Shown here piece by piece: positions 15,620 through 22,473 of a stretch of 49,083 nucleotides of DNA. Source of the DNA: Polyangiaceae bacterium (lineage in GTDB: Bacteria > Myxococcota_A > Polyangia > Polyangiales > Polyangiaceae). Positions within the stretch are counted from its first letter, which is position 1; every line of letters starts with the position of its first letter. The stretch is taken from NCBI GenBank assembly GCA_029261965.1, contig JAJDAH010000170.1, positions 1 to 49,083 on the forward strand, in the 5' to 3' direction. The notes beneath the pieces are model-generated. The model was not told the DNA's origin. It saw only the letters and a program-made list of their open reading frames with translations, and searched no databases. The translations under genes and the position numbers were made by a program.

Positions 15620-16501
15620 GTGAACCTCCGCCCATATTTTCAGCTGTGCCGCATTCCCAACGTGTTTACCGCATTCGCGAACGTGCTCGCGGGGGTGGTG
15701 CTCGTTCGGGGCGGAGCTCCGATTAAGACTGATTGGTGGCTGCTCGCGGCCACCGGCGCACTTTATTGCGGGGGCATGGTGCTCAACGACTTCTTCGATC
15801 GCGAGATCGATGCGGTCGAACGCCCCGACCGGCCCATCCCCTCCGGGCAGGTCAGCGCCTTTGGTGCTGGCATGTTTGGCTCATCGTTGCTCGCTGTCGG
15901 AGTTGGCATGGCGTCCTGGCACTCGACCCGCGCGACGATGACGGCCATTGCGCTCGTTGTTGCGATTCTCGCTTACGACGCTTGGCTCAAATCGAGCAGG
16001 CTCGGACCCGTGGCAATGGGATCGTGCCGCTTCTTGAACGTCGCCCTCGGCCTGAGTGCCGCGGAAGCCAGCTCACTGGACGTGTGGTGGGCGCCCGTCC
16101 TCGCGGGCCTGTTCACCGCAGCCATCACCGGCCTCTCGCAGCACGAGGTCGGAGGCACGGCGTCGGACCGCGTCCGACCCATCGTGCTCGCCCTCGGAGC
16201 GTTGGCCGGCCTACTCGCATTCGCCGCGGTGCGCTCGGCGCGGCCCGGGAGTTGGCAAGTACTGGCCACTGTAGCGCCGTTCTTCACGCTCGTACTGATT
16301 CGAGGTCGCCAGCTGTTCGGTCCGCTGTGGCTGAGCGCGGCCCCGCCGGACCTCGGCCGCGCCATCGGTGGGGGGATCCTGCTCATGCCGGCGATCGACG
16401 CGACCATCGTGGCTGCGCATGGCTCACCCGTGTGGGCGCTCGCCGTCGTCGTCGTCGGCGCGCCCGGCTACCTGCTGAAGCGCTGGTACTATCTGACCTG
16501 A
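15620..16501 (+). CDS. eboC: EboC-like UbiA-superfamily prenyltransferase
   Basis: A 293-residue polytopic membrane protein of the UbiA superfamily, with about eight or nine hydrophobic helices. The first aspartate-rich motif is intact: NDFFDREID (Asn56, Asp57, Asp60, Asp64) followed by RPDRPIPSG, the Mg/diphosphate-binding and active-site loop. The second canonical Asp-rich motif is replaced by YDAWLKSSRLGP (about 119-130), as I recall for the EboC branch. It starts with GTG 15620 behind GGAG. Together with the eboA/B/E/F-like genes downstream it marks an ebo cluster. The prenyl donor and acceptor are unknown. Assignment to EboC rather than another UbiA enzyme rests on the neighbourhood and on the CRxLN/YDAWLK motifs. 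Confidence 0.85.
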   Translation: MNLRPYFQLCRIPNVFTAFANVLAGVVLVRGGAPIKTDWWLLAATGALYCGGMVLNDFFDREIDAVERPDRPIPSGQVSAFGAGMFGSSLLAVGVGMASWHSTRATMTAIALVVAILAYDAWLKSSRLGPVAMGSCRFLNVALGLSAAEASSLDVWWAPVLAGLFTAAITGLSQHEVGGTASDRVRPIVLALGALAGLLAFAAVRSARPGSWQVLATVAPFFTLVLIRGRQLFGPLWLSAAPPDLGRAIGGGILLMPAIDATIVAAHGSPVWALAVVVVGAPGYLLKRWYYLT

Positions 16502-16529
16502 TCGCCCGTCTCGCGTGTCCGCAGCGGCT

Positions 16530-16558
16530 GGCCGTCGCTGGCCTGGACGGCCGTCTTT
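16530..16558 (+). terminator. Putative terminator after eboC
   Basis: GGCCGTC (16530-16536) and GACGGCC (16546-16552) form a perfect 7-bp stem with a 9-base loop, followed by GTCTTT. The tract is short, so strength is uncertain. It lies between eboC and the convergent GAF gene. Confidence 0.4.
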
Positions 16559-16568
16559 CAACGACCAG

Positions 16569-17039
16569 CTAGAGGGATTTCCCGAGCAAGGCGGCGCAGC
16601 TCGCCAACGTCGCCTTCTCGTCGTCGGTGTAGTCGTGTGCGCCAGGCTTGCCGACCCCGAGAGCTCCGGCAAGTCGTCCGCCCTCGTCGAACACCGGCAC
16701 GGCGATCGCTCCCTCGACACCGGTGAGCTTCGCACTCGGTTTCGCCACGCCCGAGGAGTCACTCTGAAGATTGCACACCGTCACCGGTTCACGACGCTGA
16801 ACACAGAGGCCGGCCATGCCCTTGCCGAACCGAATGCGCTCTGTCACCGCTGCAACAGGCGGCGGTAGCCCCTTCGAAGCGACCATCAGCAACACCGACT
16901 CGTCGTTGTCCGCGCGATGCAGCGTCACGGTCACCGCGCCAAAGGCAGTGGCGATCTCCTCGATCGCGAGATCGAACGATGGGCCGCTCGAGCTGGTGAG
17001 GGCGGCTTCAACCGAGCTGGGCAACGATGCAAGAGCCAT
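16569..17039 (-). CDS. Stand-alone GAF-domain protein
   Basis: A 156-residue single GAF domain. It shows the typical run FDLAIEEIATAFGAVTVTLHRAD, the ...RIRFGKGMAGLCVQRREPVTVCNL segment and the closing strand EGAIAVPVFDEGGRLAGALGVGKP. No output domain is attached. ATG 17039 is preferred over the ATG 15 bases upstream because GGAGGT (17052-17047) sits seven bases before it. The gene is inverted between eboC and eboA, and its divergent promoter region shares the 21-bp repeats with eboA. It could be a small-molecule sensor for the cluster, but nothing in the sequence identifies the ligand. Confidence 0.85.
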   Translation of the reverse strand: MALASLPSSVEAALTSSSGPSFDLAIEEIATAFGAVTVTLHRADNDESVLLMVASKGLPPPVAAVTERIRFGKGMAGLCVQRREPVTVCNLQSDSSGVAKPSAKLTGVEGAIAVPVFDEGGRLAGALGVGKPGAHDYTDDEKATLASCAALLGKSL

Positions 17040-17046
17040 GGGATCG

Positions 17047-17052
17047 ACCTCC
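17047..17052 (-). promoter_or_regulatory. Shine-Dalgarno sequence that decides the GAF gene start
   Basis: GGAGGT on the minus strand is 7 bases before ATG 17039. The alternative ATG at 17054 has no ribosome-binding sequence. Confidence 0.7.
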
Positions 17053-17119
17053 ATCCGAACGAAAGCAGGAGCGCGACCGAGTCTAGCGTCGAGTCTGCAG
17101 AAGTCCCAACATCGTCCGG

Positions 17120-17182
17120 GACGATCTCAGCTTCTGGGCAGACGATCCCAGCTTTTGGGCATACGATCTCAGCTTCTGGCGC
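17120..17182. repeat. Three 21-bp direct tandem repeats upstream of eboA
   Basis: Copies at 17120-17140, 17141-17161 and 17162-17182 share the core ACGATCTCAGCTTCTGGG with one to three differences each. A fourth, partial copy (ACGATCTC) begins at 17183. The period of exactly 21 bp is two turns of the helix, so any bound protein would line up on one face. The array lies in the 222-base spacer between the GAF gene and eboA, about 45 bp upstream of the proposed eboA -35 element. Confidence 0.85.
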
Positions 17183-17225
17183 ACGATCTCGTTCTCGGCG
17201 CGCTGGAGCGAAGGTTTCGACGTCG

Positions 17226-17254
17226 ATGACCACGATGAGACAAGCTGCTACCTT
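17226..17254 (+). promoter_or_regulatory. Putative eboA promoter
   Basis: ATGACC (17226-17231) resembles a -35 element, followed by a 17-bp spacer and TACCTT (17249-17254) as the -10. The -10 ends 7 bases before ATG 17262, predicting a leaderless mRNA. If this is correct, the in-frame ATG at 17226 is part of the promoter and not the start. Confidence 0.4.
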
Positions 17255-17261
17255 GCTCGCG

Positions 17262-18119
17262 ATGTCGGTCACCGAGCGCCAGGACGCGCTCATGAAACGG
17301 CTTCGGGCGGGTTGTCCCGAGAGCGGCGTGAGCTGGCTCGAAGAAGTCGCTCGCACCGCCCTCTCCGAGCGCTCGACGAAACGGCTGCTCGACGCGTTCC
17401 CCGCTACCGCACGGCGGCTGGGCACGGGGCTCCTGGCGACGACGACCACATGCGAGCCCGAGGGCACATCCAACTTCACTGCCGACGTGGGCGGCCGCGC
17501 GGTGCTCCTGTTGGTAGCCGCGGTGATCGATCCCGAAAACCTGAAGACCGTCACAGAAGCCGCCTACGACATCGGCGACACCCGCGAAAAGATTGCGGTT
17601 GTTCGTTCGCTCGGCCTCTTGCCGGACAACACGCAGCTCTTACCGCTCGCGCTCGATGCGGGTCGCACGAACGACGCGAACTTGTTCGCGGCCTTGGCGA
17701 CCGACAACCCCTACGCCTGTCAACGCTATCCGGAGCCGGATCTCAACAAGCTCGTCATGAAGGCGGCTTTCGTCGGGATCCCCATCGACCGAATCATCGG
17801 CCTCGAGCAGCGATGCAACCAGGATCTGGCACGTATGGGCATGGAGTACATCGATCAGCAGCAGTCGGCGGACCGCGATTTTCCGCCAGAGCTGTGGCTC
17901 GCCATCGGGCCCCACCCGCCGGCGGGAGCCGTGGCACGCATGATCGGCTACCTCAACCACAGCGTGGAAGCGCACCGCCTTGGCGCGGCTCGGGGCCTCG
18001 GAATGACCGCTGACGGCCGCGCCCGCGCGTTTTTGCAGGAGCGTTCGGCAGTGGAGGAGAGTCCCGAAGTCCGAGCTGAGGTCTTGCGCTCGCTCGAAGC
18101 CCTGTCGGCAACCGGTTGA
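17262..18119 (+). CDS. eboA: EboA-like protein
   Basis: A 285-residue soluble helical protein with the features I associate with the EboA family: DAGRTNDANLFAALATDNPY, a YPEPDLNKLVMKAAFVG block, IGLEQRCNQDLARMGMEYID and PPELWLAIG. No catalytic motif or membrane segment is visible. EboA proteins have no assigned biochemical function. Starts at 17226 and 17235 are possible, but 17262 leaves a plausible promoter and a short N-terminus (MSVTERQDALMKRL). It opens the co-directional run eboA-eboB-eboE-eboF. Confidence 0.8.
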   Translation: MSVTERQDALMKRLRAGCPESGVSWLEEVARTALSERSTKRLLDAFPATARRLGTGLLATTTTCEPEGTSNFTADVGGRAVLLLVAAVIDPENLKTVTEAAYDIGDTREKIAVVRSLGLLPDNTQLLPLALDAGRTNDANLFAALATDNPYACQRYPEPDLNKLVMKAAFVGIPIDRIIGLEQRCNQDLARMGMEYIDQQQSADRDFPPELWLAIGPHPPAGAVARMIGYLNHSVEAHRLGAARGLGMTADGRARAFLQERSAVEESPEVRAEVLRSLEALSATG

Positions 18120-18175
18120 CCGCCTGCTAGAAGAGACCACGGCGTCCACGCGCGCAAGGAAACACTGGATTAACG

Positions 18176-19051
18176 ATGCTCTTCGACCCACACATCCATT
18201 TGGCTTCGCGAACCACCGACGACTACGAGCGGATGGCCAAGGCCGGCATTCGCGGGGTCGTCGAACCGGCGTTCTGGCAAGGCCAGCCTCGAACGCAAGT
18301 CGGCACGTTCATCGACTATTTCAACTCGCTCGTTGGTTGGGAAAGGTTTCGCGCGAGCCAGTTCGGCATCGCGCACTTCTGCACGATCGCCCTCAACCCC
18401 AAAGAAGCCAACGATCCACGCATCAGCCGCGATGTCCTCGACCTGGTGCCGAGATATCTCGAGAAGGATGGCGTAGTCGGGGTGGGAGAAATTGGATACG
18501 ACGACGTCACGGACGCCGAGGAGAAAGCATTCGCCGAGCAGCTCGAGTTGGCGAAGAAGCTCGCCGTGCCGGCGCTGATTCATACGCCGCATCGCGACAA
18601 GAAGAAGGGCACCGAACGTACCCTCGCACTAGTCAAGGAAGTCGGCATCCCGGAGGACCTGGTAATCGTAGATCACAACAACGAAGAGACGCTGCCGCTC
18701 GTGCTCGAGACGGCATGTTGGCGTGGCCATTCGATCTACCCCGACACGAAAATGACCGAGGAGCGCATGGTCGGCCTCTTGAAGCGCTACGGCACTGAGC
18801 GAATGATCGTCAACAGCGCCGCCGATTGGGGCAAGAGTGATCCGCTCAAGGTACCAAAAACCGCAGACGCCATGCGCGCTGCGGGCTTCGATGAGGAGCA
18901 AGTGCAAACCGTTTGTTGGCACAACCCGATCAGGTTCTTTGAGCAGTCCGGCCGATTGGACCGAACCTTGCTCGAAAGCGACAAGATCGACCAGACGCTG
19001 CTCTTCGAGGGTAACTCTGTGCTCCGAGGACAGCAGCCGAGACGCCAATAG
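18176..19051 (+). CDS. eboB: EboB-like TatD-family metal-dependent hydrolase
   Basis: A 291-residue TIM-barrel hydrolase. All expected metal ligands are visible: HxH at His6/His8 (DPHIHL), Glu105 (GVGEIGYDD), His136 in IHTPH, His167 in IVDHNNE and Asp217 in NSAADWG. This supports a dinuclear metal hydrolase rather than a degenerate member. The substrate in ebo clusters is unknown. It lies 56 bases after eboA and 30 bases before the eboE-like gene. AAGGAA is present but 14 bases from the ATG, so the ribosome-binding site is not ideal. Confidence 0.87.
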   Translation: MLFDPHIHLASRTTDDYERMAKAGIRGVVEPAFWQGQPRTQVGTFIDYFNSLVGWERFRASQFGIAHFCTIALNPKEANDPRISRDVLDLVPRYLEKDGVVGVGEIGYDDVTDAEEKAFAEQLELAKKLAVPALIHTPHRDKKKGTERTLALVKEVGIPEDLVIVDHNNEETLPLVLETACWRGHSIYPDTKMTEERMVGLLKRYGTERMIVNSAADWGKSDPLKVPKTADAMRAAGFDEEQVQTVCWHNPIRFFEQSGRLDRTLLESDKIDQTLLFEGNSVLRGQQPRRQ

Positions 19052-19081
19052 CTGGCTCGGTCTGAACCCCCACCGCATCGC

Positions 19082-20266
19082 ATGCACGTGACCACAGCGG
19101 CTGGGCACCGGACCCTGTTGACCTATTGCGCCAACGTGCACCCCGGGGAGCGCCTCGACGACGTCCTTCGCGCGGTCGAGGTATTCATCGGCCCGGTGCG
19201 CCGAAGGCTGGGTGCGCCACGCTTGGGGGCTGGGCTCTGGCTCAGCCGCACGGCCCTGTCGGAGCTCTCGACCCGTGGTGCGACCCAGCTTCGACGGGCG
19301 CTCGATGCTGAGTCGCTATTCGCCTTCACTTTCAACGGCTTTCCCTACGGCGACTTTCAGGCACGTCGGGTCAAGCGTCGGGTCTATCACCCGGATTGGA
19401 CGCGCGAAGAGCGACTCGACTATTCGGTCCGGCTCGCCGAAGTTCTCGCAGAGCTCCTGCCCGACGACTTGGACGACGCGACGATCTCCACCCTCCCGCT
19501 CGGTCACCGGGAGGAAATGCCGGCCGAGCATCTGGACACCGCGCTCGAACAGGTCTGTCGCACCGCCTCCGCGCTCGCCGCGATTCGCGACCGCACGGGC
19601 AAGTGCATCCGACTCTGCCTCGAACCCGAACCCGGCTGCTGGCTCGAAACGACCGAACAGACGGTCGAGCTACTCGGGCAGCGACTGCCAGAGGCGGCGC
19701 AGCGCATCGGCGTTCTGCACGAGCATATCGCCACGCACGTCGGCGTCTGCTTCGACGCGTGTCACCAAGCCGTGGCGTTCGAAGACGCCCGGGAGTCGCT
19801 CGGCAAACTCGAAGCGGCCGGAATTACCATCGGCAAGGTCCAGCTCTCGAACGCCATCGAAGTGAAAGATCCCGGCGCGGCCGGGGCTCGTCGCGCGCTC
19901 GACGAGTTCCGTGAGCCGCGGTTTTTGCACCAGGTGCGTGCAAAAAATCCCGACGGAACCCTCGAAAGCGCGGACGATCTCGACCAAACCGAGTGCTTGC
20001 CCACCGACCGGCCGTGGCGTGTGCACTTTCACGTCCCCATCCACCGAGATTCGATGGGAGAGCTCGGGACTACTCGGGATTTCTTGGAGCAAACCCTCCG
20101 CACGGTCGCCGCGCGGTCGGTGTTGCCTCATCTGGAGGTCGAAACCTATACGTGGTCGGTGCTCCCGCCGAACGAACGCCCCCGGGGTGACGAGGATCTC
20201 GTCGAAAAATTGGCTCGTGAGCTCGAATGGGCCCGGGCGCGACTCCACGGCGAGGACAGCTCGTGA
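19082..20266 (+). CDS. eboE: EboE-like TIM-barrel protein (xylose-isomerase-like)
   Basis: A 394-residue protein of the xylose-isomerase-like TIM-barrel superfamily. Putative metal ligands lie in CLEPEPG (Glu181), CFDACH (Asp225, His228) and HFHVP (His315/317), matching the usual E/D/H/E arrangement in outline. The N-terminal LLTYCANVHPGE and the IGKVQLSNA strand fit the EboE metabolite-traffic family as I know it. The product is presumably a sugar- or polyol-type isomerase or epimerase, but the substrate is not known. Its stop overlaps the GTG start of the next gene by four bases, so translation is coupled. Confidence 0.87.
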   Translation: MHVTTAAGHRTLLTYCANVHPGERLDDVLRAVEVFIGPVRRRLGAPRLGAGLWLSRTALSELSTRGATQLRRALDAESLFAFTFNGFPYGDFQARRVKRRVYHPDWTREERLDYSVRLAEVLAELLPDDLDDATISTLPLGHREEMPAEHLDTALEQVCRTASALAAIRDRTGKCIRLCLEPEPGCWLETTEQTVELLGQRLPEAAQRIGVLHEHIATHVGVCFDACHQAVAFEDARESLGKLEAAGITIGKVQLSNAIEVKDPGAAGARRALDEFREPRFLHQVRAKNPDGTLESADDLDQTECLPTDRPWRVHFHVPIHRDSMGELGTTRDFLEQTLRTVAARSVLPHLEVETYTWSVLPPNERPRGDEDLVEKLARELEWARARLHGEDSS

Positions 20267-21633
20267 CGCGCCCCCTCGTGGTCGTGCTCGTGGTCGGGCT
20301 CACGCGTTCGATGCTCGGCAAAAACACGCCCAACCTCAACCGGGTAGCCCAAGACGGATTCGTGGCGCCGGTCGATCCGATCTTGCCGGCAGTCACGTGC
20401 TCCGCTCAGTCCACGATTCTCACCGGCACACTGCCGCAGAGCCACGGCATCGTCGCCAACGGTTGGTACTTCCGAGACCTCAGCGAGATTTGGCTTTGGC
20501 GCCAATCGAATCGGCTCGTAGGTGGGGAGAAGTTGTGGGAGGCGGCGAAGAAAAGGCAGCCGGACTTGCGCTGCGCCAAGATGTTCTGGTGGTACAACAT
20601 GTACTCGACCGCGGACATTTCGGTCACGCCCCGACCGATCTACCCGGCCGACGGCCGCAAGATCCCCAGCGCCTATTCGGAGCCGCCGGAGCTCGCCGAC
20701 GAGCTACAGCGGCAGTGCGGCACCTTTCCGCTGTTCAACTTCTGGGGGCCGACTGCCGGGATCCAATCGAGCGAGTGGATCGCGCGAGCGTCGCGTCGCG
20801 TCTTCGACGAACGGCGCCCGGAGCTCACCCTCGTCTACCTCCCGCACCTCGACTACTGCCTTCAGAGACTCGGTCCCAATGACCCACAGGTGGCGCCGGA
20901 GATCAGGTCGGTCGATGGAGTGGCGGGTGAGCTGATCGACCACGTGCGCGGCCAAGGCGCCGATGTCGTCGTGCTCAGTGAGTACGGAATCGAAAATGCA
21001 ACCGGCGTGGTCCGGATCAATCAACGACTGCGCGAGGCGGGGCTTCTGCGCGTGCAAGAGACCCTGGGTTGGGAGCTTTTGGATGCAGGAGCATCCCGGG
21101 CCTTCGCCGTCGCCGACCATCAGATCGCCCACGTCTACGTGCGAGATCCTTCGGATCTCGGTCGGGTCCGGGAGCTACTCTCGAAAGAGCCCGGCATCGA
21201 GAGGGTGCTCGACGAATCGGGAAAACGAGACGTCGGCCTCGACCACCCGCGCTCCGGCGAGCTCGTCGCGGTGGCGGAGCCGGGTCACTGGTTCGCCTAT
21301 TACTACTGGCTCGACGAGTCTCGTGCGCCGGACTTCGCTCGCACGGTCGATATCCACCGCAAGCCCGGCTACGACCCGGTCGAGCTGTTCCTCGATCCCC
21401 AAAAGCCCTTGGTCAAAGGCCGCGTTCTTTGGACCCTCGCAAAAAAGACCATTGGGTTGCGTTACCTGATGGACGTGATCCCGCTGGATCCGTCGCTGGT
21501 TCGTGGCACCCATGGTCGCATCACGACCGATCCCGACGAGGGGCCTTTGGTGATGAGCACCCGTAGTGATCAAGCGTTCGATCGATGTCACATGACCGAT
21601 CTGAAACGCTTCTTGCTAGACCACCTCGACTGA
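20263..21633 (+). CDS. eboF: EboF-like member of the alkaline phosphatase/NPP superfamily
   Basis: A 456-residue protein in the type I phosphodiesterase/nucleotide pyrophosphatase fold. The nucleophile region PAVTCSAQST is intact (Thr45) and is followed by LTGTLPQSHGIVANGWYFRD. The canonical metal site is eroded: the first Asp (usually xDGL) is Val11 in VVGL, the SDHG motif reads SEYG (239-242), and the His after the PDxxGH Asp is Gln201 (LDYCLQRLGP, Asp197). His417 in GTHG remains. It may use a different metal set, be inactive as a phosphatase, or bind a phosphorylated ligand. GTG 20263 is chosen because it overlaps the eboE stop. Last gene of the run. Confidence 0.87.
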   Translation: MTRPLVVVLVVGLTRSMLGKNTPNLNRVAQDGFVAPVDPILPAVTCSAQSTILTGTLPQSHGIVANGWYFRDLSEIWLWRQSNRLVGGEKLWEAAKKRQPDLRCAKMFWWYNMYSTADISVTPRPIYPADGRKIPSAYSEPPELADELQRQCGTFPLFNFWGPTAGIQSSEWIARASRRVFDERRPELTLVYLPHLDYCLQRLGPNDPQVAPEIRSVDGVAGELIDHVRGQGADVVVLSEYGIENATGVVRINQRLREAGLLRVQETLGWELLDAGASRAFAVADHQIAHVYVRDPSDLGRVRELLSKEPGIERVLDESGKRDVGLDHPRSGELVAVAEPGHWFAYYYWLDESRAPDFARTVDIHRKPGYDPVELFLDPQKPLVKGRVLWTLAKKTIGLRYLMDVIPLDPSLVRGTHGRITTDPDEGPLVMSTRSDQAFDRCHMTDLKRFLLDHLD

Positions 21634-21648
21634 GCTTGCCCGCGCCGC

Positions 21649-22473
21649 TCAGTCAGTGCCCAGAAACTCGAACGCGCGCCGGGCGGTCTCCACGGCGTCG
21701 TGGGAATGACGACTCAGCTCCAAGGTCGCCGGGCCAGCGTAGCCCGCGTTCTTCAGAGCCGAGACGACACTCCGCACATCGAGATCGCCCTCCCATGGCG
21801 GCAGATGCTCATGCACATCGCGCGTCATGCCTTCCAGATGCACATTGGCGATCGACGAGATGAACGCATTCACGGTCGCCTCCGCCCCCGTCGGCTCGAG
21901 CATGTGCGCATGGCCAACGTCGAGGGTGAGCTTGAATGCGGAGTCGGCAACGGCGGCGGAAATGCGCTCGAAGTGCGCCATCGTTTCTACGTGCATGCCG
22001 GGTTCGGGCTCGAACGCGACGACCACGCCGGATTTCCGTGCATGCTCACAAAGCTCTTGCAGACCCGCGACGAGGCGTTCGTCGAGGTCGGTGGGATCTC
22101 GCGCACTCGGTGCGGCTCCCGACCAGAGACTCACGACTTCGGCACCGATCTCGACGGCGACGTCGACGGACGTGCGCAAGAACCCGAGTCGTCGAGCTCG
22201 CTCTCGAGGCTCGTCTTCCAGCAGGGTCGGTCGGTGTTTACGCAACGGGTCGAGCAAGAACCGCGCGCCGGTCTCCACGACCGGAACGAGGTCGAGCTGC
22301 CGAACGCGCGCGGCGATTCGTTTCGCCTCGGCGGGCCAGCCCTGAGTCAACGGATTCAGCGCGTGGTGGTCGAGCGTGATGCCGACACTCCGATATCCGA
22401 GCCTCGCGATCACCTCTAGCGCATCCGCTAGAGCGTGCGAAGCGAAGCCGTTTGTGTTGTAGCCGAGTAGCAT
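21649..22473 (-). CDS. Sugar phosphate isomerase/epimerase-like TIM barrel
   Basis: A 274-residue xylose-isomerase-like barrel. Metal-site motifs are FEPEPGMHVE (Glu), LTLDVGHAHML (Asp, His), HLEGMTRDVHEHLPPWEGD (Glu/His) and ATLELSRH (Glu). The ATG at 22473 gives the expected start (MLLGYNTNGFASHALADALE); the frame upstream would need a TTG start with no support. It is convergent with the eboF-like gene, with only 15 bases between stops. It is a second, smaller barrel beside EboE and may act in the same pathway; the two differ too much to be a recent duplication. The substrate is unknown. Confidence 0.85.
   Translation of the reverse strand: MLLGYNTNGFASHALADALEVIARLGYRSVGITLDHHALNPLTQGWPAEAKRIAARVRQLDLVPVVETGARFLLDPLRKHRPTLLEDEPRERARRLGFLRTSVDVAVEIGAEVVSLWSGAAPSARDPTDLDERLVAGLQELCEHARKSGVVVAFEPEPGMHVETMAHFERISAAVADSAFKLTLDVGHAHMLEPTGAEATVNAFISSIANVHLEGMTRDVHEHLPPWEGDLDVRSVVSALKNAGYAGPATLELSRHSHDAVETARRAFEFLGTD

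Follow-up and report, generated by a model that had tools for sequence, protein, structure and literature searches.

An ebo locus without eboD in a Polyangiaceae genome and its placement within a second type of ebo cluster

The presumed product of the ebo pathway is a lipid with a part in moving small molecules out of the cell. The described operon, ABCDEF, is found in eustigmatophyte plastids, Bacteroidetes and Cyanobacteria (PMC5133447, PMC6282210), and a need for ebo genes in metabolite export to the periplasm has been demonstrated in Nostoc punctiforme only, where eboD is located outside the ebo cluster proper (PMC6282210). The gene eboD has already been reported missing in Leeuwenhoekiella sp. 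MAR_2009_132 and in two of three Planctomycetes, the latter with unclustered ebo genes; deletion or assembly gaps were named as possible reasons, and a replacement by Ino1 or XI2 (see below) is not described (PMC5133447). A further gene string is displayed by the RefSeq annotation of Actinomycetota clusters, among them Streptomyces plasmids (e.g., that of Streptomyces sp. NBC_01768, L260): a member of the inositol-phosphate synthase family (Ino1), an SCO3242-family prenyltransferase, a sugar phosphate isomerase, EboA, TatD, EboE and a phosphodiesterase.

Gene content of the locus

The window, the whole stretch of 49,083 nucleotides analysed here, is a complete contig (C79) of a 9.59 Mb Polyangiaceae assembly in 480 contigs (96.4% complete, 3.5% contaminated) and contains no N. 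Its first ebo gene, eboC (15620..16501, + strand), encodes a UbiA-superfamily prenyltransferase (UbiA in Pfam) with an intact NDxxDxxxD motif (NDFFDREID), for which EboC is the best NCBIfam family at 204.1 bits (cut-off 250), ahead of SCO3242 at 170.1 bits. A single Glu is conserved in 15 of 15 aligned EboC sequences of both ebo types, at the place where many UbiA enzymes carry a second Asp-rich motif. Between eboC and eboA lies an inverted gene of 161 aa (16569..17054, − strand; Pfam GAF_2, 53 bits), divergent from eboA. The eboA gene itself (17226..18119, + strand) passes the NCBIfam cut-off for the EboA domain (126.5 bits, cut-off 50) but does not reach that of the narrower EboA_family model (104.7 bits, cut-off 320); its frame is open from 16917, and the start codon at 17226 is inferred from the sequence. 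Then follow, all on the + strand, eboB (18176..19051), a TatD-like metal hydrolase gene (Pfam TatD, 55 bits), eboE (19082..20266), which codes for a xylose-isomerase-like TIM barrel well above its NCBIfam cut-off (TIM_EboE, 425.7 bits, cut-off 250), and eboF (20263..21633), which codes for a type I phosphodiesterase/nucleotide pyrophosphatase (Pfam Phosphodiest, 217.7 bits) and whose GTG start overlaps the eboE stop codon by four bases (GTGA). EboB and EboF match no dedicated NCBIfam model; they lie within the cluster and reach up to 73% and 63% identity, respectively, to homologues from other ebo clusters. Convergent at the end stands a second xylose-isomerase/epimerase-like barrel gene (21649..22473, − strand; PF01261, 119 bits), and we use the name XI2 for this extra barrel of ebo clusters; in the window it adjoins a polysaccharide deacetylase gene. 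The original prediction of five ebo genes lying together, with an inverted GAF gene splitting eboC from eboA and a convergent second barrel at the end, was confirmed by NCBIfam, Pfam and homologue identities (ebo genes at 15620-21633), with EboC as the best family for the first gene at a score below its cut-off of 250 bits. The profiles for EboA, B, C, E and F that served the cluster survey contain the window sequence, which inflates its own bit scores there; the NCBIfam scores, Pfam scores and BLAST identities of its proteins are free of this effect.

As in the ABCDEF operon, homologues of eboA, eboB, eboC, eboE and eboF stand together here; the window differs from that operon by the absence of eboD from cluster and assembly, the presence of XI2 and the order C-A-B-E-F with the inverted GAF gene between C and A. 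It resembles Leeuwenhoekiella and the Planctomycetes in having ebo genes without a detectable eboD, while its genes, unlike those of the Planctomycetes, are clustered. With the Actinomycetota clusters it shares the set of A, B, C, E, F and XI2 and the lack of eboD; in those clusters, however, XI2 lies between C and A, Ino1 is part of the string and the prenyltransferase belongs to the SCO3242 family, whereas the window EboC scores higher as EboC.

The GAF gene is strongly associated with ebo genes in this family and class. Among 108 family genomes, strong homologues occur in 18, of which 16 carry ebo genes (16 of the 21 ebo-bearing genomes versus 2 of the 87 others), and the gene adjoins ebo genes at nine further loci, in two of which (L029 and L280) it is divergent from eboA as in the window, a position divergent from eboA or eboD being frequent. 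The GAF protein is an ebo-associated accessory in the family and may act as a sensor or regulator. That the contig is part of this genome is indicated by the GAF gene, which other family members share, by a queuine tRNA-ribosyltransferase on the same contig that is 68% identical to one in a genome of the same family, and by the tetranucleotide composition of the flanks. The ebo cluster itself, which is short, correlates less well with its flanks in tetranucleotide composition (0.43-0.45).

Two types of ebo cluster and a candidate cyclitol route

A scan with an EboE alignment covered 84,980 genomes, and 90 clusters containing B, C, E and F were compared. In 28 of these eboD is nearby and XI2 absent, in 58 (window counted) XI2 is present and eboD absent, and no cluster holds both. 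Because genomes in the scan were ranked by how closely they match the window EboE, and the accompanying Fisher tests count related clusters as independent observations, the ratio between the types should not be read as a census; the robust result is the exclusion. Four clusters have neither gene, two of them with eboD elsewhere and one cut by a contig end. The locus, originally read as a rearranged cluster, is not a one-off: the same eboD-less type recurs in Actinomycetota, Pseudomonadota, Rokubacteria and other Myxococcota, and three genomes from the class of the window hold complete Ino1-C-XI2-A-B-E-F sets with AroB only and no eboD. Among 13 genomes that hold a cluster or cluster fragment of the eboD-less type, 12 lack eboD by profile score. 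One genome (G506) contains an eboD-B-A-GAF fragment and, on a separate contig, an eboE-eboF fragment resembling the other type; both types may coexist there, or the assembly may be contaminated. In six Actinomycetota loci XI2 is fused to EboA. Such a fusion has been mentioned in passing, with data not shown and unlinked to eboD (PMC5133447). Judged by the exclusion of XI2 and eboD and by these fusions, XI2 is a standard part of a second, eboD-less ebo type. An earlier description of this Ino1/XI2 variant was not found in the open-access literature, where searches for Ino1 or SCO3242 together with ebo turned up only the ebo papers already known; an account in a subscription journal is possible.

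The likely counterpart of EboD in the second type is Ino1. A cluster-type Ino1 gene (PF01658) is found near 44 of the 58 XI2 clusters. In 40 it is inside the locus; in four Pseudomonadota (L206-L209) it shares the strand of XI2 and precedes it by about 11 kb, a stretch that in L059 (1251-6045) holds DUF58, BatA-like and VWA genes. One Ino1-type ebo cluster, on a Streptomyces plasmid, has a gene for a ScyD/ScyE-family protein immediately upstream (L263:1186-2385), which recalls the cyanobacterial link between ebo and scytonemin genes. The original prediction had considered that eboD might be encoded elsewhere or replaced by the extra barrel. The barrel does matter, no eboD lies elsewhere in the assembly, and EboD's ring-forming role is most likely taken by Ino1, since Ino1, like EboD, belongs to the sugar-phosphate cyclases, unlike a metal-dependent isomerase/epimerase barrel. 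The cluster Ino1 retains the lysines that are conserved throughout its family. The predicted model of XI2 (pLDDT 96) has sugar 3-epimerases as closest folds (such as UlaE and D-tagatose 3-epimerase-like proteins), and 30 sequences show no variation at seven residues (E155, E157, D185, H188, H221, H223 and E252). Of these, E155, D185 and E252 match the metal-binding pattern that is usual for this fold. On the basis of the model, XI2 is likely an isomerase, epimerase or dehydratase, and not a cyclase.

The gene content, the absence of eboD, the phylogenetic place and the exclusion of XI2 and eboD are established from sequence. Beyond this, the locus probably represents a second, eboD-less ebo type of C, A, B, E, F and XI2, usually with Ino1, that would serve a prenyl-cyclitol pathway. 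Both types would make a cyclitol to which EboC attaches a prenyl chain. In the eboD-bearing type ring closure would fall to EboD, a sugar phosphate cyclase whose posited substrate is sedoheptulose 7-phosphate, and in the eboD-less type to an Ino1-family enzyme acting on a hexose phosphate, with XI2, bound to EboA as its scaffold, isomerising or epimerising either the cyclitol or a precursor of it. EboF would cleave a phosphate ester, and the resulting prenyl-cyclitol could be a membrane carrier or an export factor, as proposed for Nostoc. How the steps are ordered, what the head group is and what EboB, EboE and XI2 each do is guesswork, and EboC may have another natural acceptor, since a homologue, Ubi-297, farnesylates quinoline compounds in vitro (PMC9235831). 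The cyclitol model fits a replacement of EboD by another sugar-phosphate cyclase, and we tentatively suggest, as a possibility we hold with reserve, that the two ebo forms build the same class of prenylated cyclitols through two unrelated cyclases, EboD on the one hand and an Ino1-family enzyme with a dedicated barrel on the other, the window lineage being fed by a housekeeping Ino1. The proposal of a cyclitol-prenyl carrier has so far drawn on EboD and EboC only, and another cyclase family standing in for EboD would lend it independent support. The Ino1 family, with its well-known assays, would also open the ebo pathway to testing, including in tractable Streptomyces, and searches for ebo clusters keyed on eboD miss a large share of them.

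Alternatively, the eboD-less type could make no cyclitol at all, with XI2 and EboE supplying another sugar headgroup and Ino1 being a frequent but independent neighbour. This is unlikely, though it would account for the 14 of 58 XI2 clusters without a neighbouring cluster-type Ino1 (the window, twelve Streptomyces and one Actinomadura) and for the resemblance of XI2 to ketose 3-epimerases. Against it, the cluster Ino1 proteins branch separately from the family's housekeeping Ino1, in lineages of their own, and score far above mycothiol-type Ino1 on their own profile, and the gene lies directly before eboC in annotated Streptomyces and never beside eboD in the B-C-E-F clusters. A different neighbourhood is seen on a Ketogulonicigenium plasmid (L261:3765-5811), where two Gfo/Idh/MocA oxidoreductase genes lie directly upstream of eboD in an eboD-type cluster.

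eboD and Ino1 in the window genome

The sugar phosphate cyclase gene expected of a canonical ABCDEF operon was found neither in the window nor in the assembly. A search of all window open reading frames of at least 50 aa with the EboD profile gave no match, in agreement with the original reading of the locus, and family searches of the whole assembly (96.4% complete), on which all genome-wide statements rest, returned a single gene of the DHQ-synthase family (PF01761), an AroK-AroB fusion on contig C3. In contrast, each of the 20 further family genomes that carry ebo genes has an eboD, mostly adjoining eboE, with the exception of one genome in which it lies elsewhere (G448) and one in which it is found at a contig end (G398). 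The window genome is therefore an exception within its family.

Cluster-type Ino1 was not detected in the window either. The only PF01658 gene of the assembly, on contig C236, is 78% identical to the Ino1 of family members and groups with them and apart from cluster-type Ino1, and Ino1 occurs in 85 of 108 family genomes, with or without ebo. A VWA gene next to this Ino1 had suggested a tie to the Pseudomonadota clusters; the tie was discarded, as that gene does not match the VWA genes of those loci and the Ino1 is of the family's ordinary type. Under the cyclitol model, the window genome would have lost or never had a cluster-type Ino1, and its cyclitol phosphate would most likely come from the housekeeping enzyme. 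Such a supply seems plausible because other loci (those of the twelve Streptomyces and one Actinomadura) also do without a neighbouring cluster-type Ino1, and because in one such genome (G459) the only Ino1 is unlike the cluster type.

It is rather improbable that eboD or a cluster-type Ino1 is present elsewhere in the genome and was missed in an incomplete assembly. The fragmentation and completeness of the assembly leave room for this, and there are precedents in the eboD on another contig in G448 and in a cluster-type Ino1 located away from ebo in G458. The window cluster, however, lies unbroken within its 49 kb contig, and AroB is mostly the sole family member in genomes of the XI2 type, which argues against a missed eboD; a cluster-type Ino1 may have escaped detection.

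Phylogenetic placement

The EboE proteins nearest to that of the window (45-49% identity) come from Pseudomonadota, Actinomycetota and Rokubacteria and are encoded in eboD-less clusters, most of them with an XI2 homologue. In BLAST searches against all loci, the best match of each of the window A, B, C, E and F proteins is in an eboD-less cluster of Pseudomonadota (L055, L056, L059 and L069, from Rhodocyclaceae, Halochromatium and others), with EboB 73% identical to that of L055 and L056, EboE nearest to L055 (49%) and EboF 63% identical to that of L056. These clusters contain XI2 as well, but theirs belongs to a subgroup farther from the window XI2 (29-33% identity), and their Ino1 lies some 11 kb upstream; the window XI2 is instead 43-47% identical to its best matches in Actinomycetota ebo clusters.

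Both the EboE tree and a tree built on 1455 concatenated columns of B, C, E and F from 57 clusters separate the clusters with eboD from those without it at 100% SH-aLRT support and place the window at the base of the eboD-less side, its exact order relative to the Pseudomonadota and Actinomycetota/Myxococcota branches not being settled by the tree. A position inside the main eboD-bearing clade, home of most Myxococcota clusters of that type, was rejected (AU test, p = 4.3e-5). An AU test that set the window plus all eboD clusters against the remaining ones (p 0.58) could not discriminate, because the window joins the tree close to the branch that divides the sides and the two splits are compatible with each other; the test against the main clade took its place. 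With XI2 present, eboD absent and its proteins grouping with the eboD-less clusters, the window locus is by sequence a divergent representative of the eboD-less variant, for which no description was found in the open-access literature, and on this placement it is not a canonical cluster minus one gene. Loss of eboD and shuffling of the family's canonical cluster, with the pathway decaying or eboD being dispensable, is very improbable. The twenty other family genomes with eboD-bearing clusters and the GAF neighbour shared with them speak for it; against it are the closest matches of all five Ebo proteins in eboD-less clusters outside the phylum, the tree and AU test, the lack of XI2 in all 28 eboD clusters, and ebo frames in the window that are all open with the inspected motifs kept.

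EboE alone, with other ebo genes undetected nearby, occurs in 14 Myxococcota loci (L039-L052) and about 12 Planctomycetota-like loci, and a sequence search found no solved-structure relative of EboE. In the EboE tree these lone-EboE loci form separate clades.
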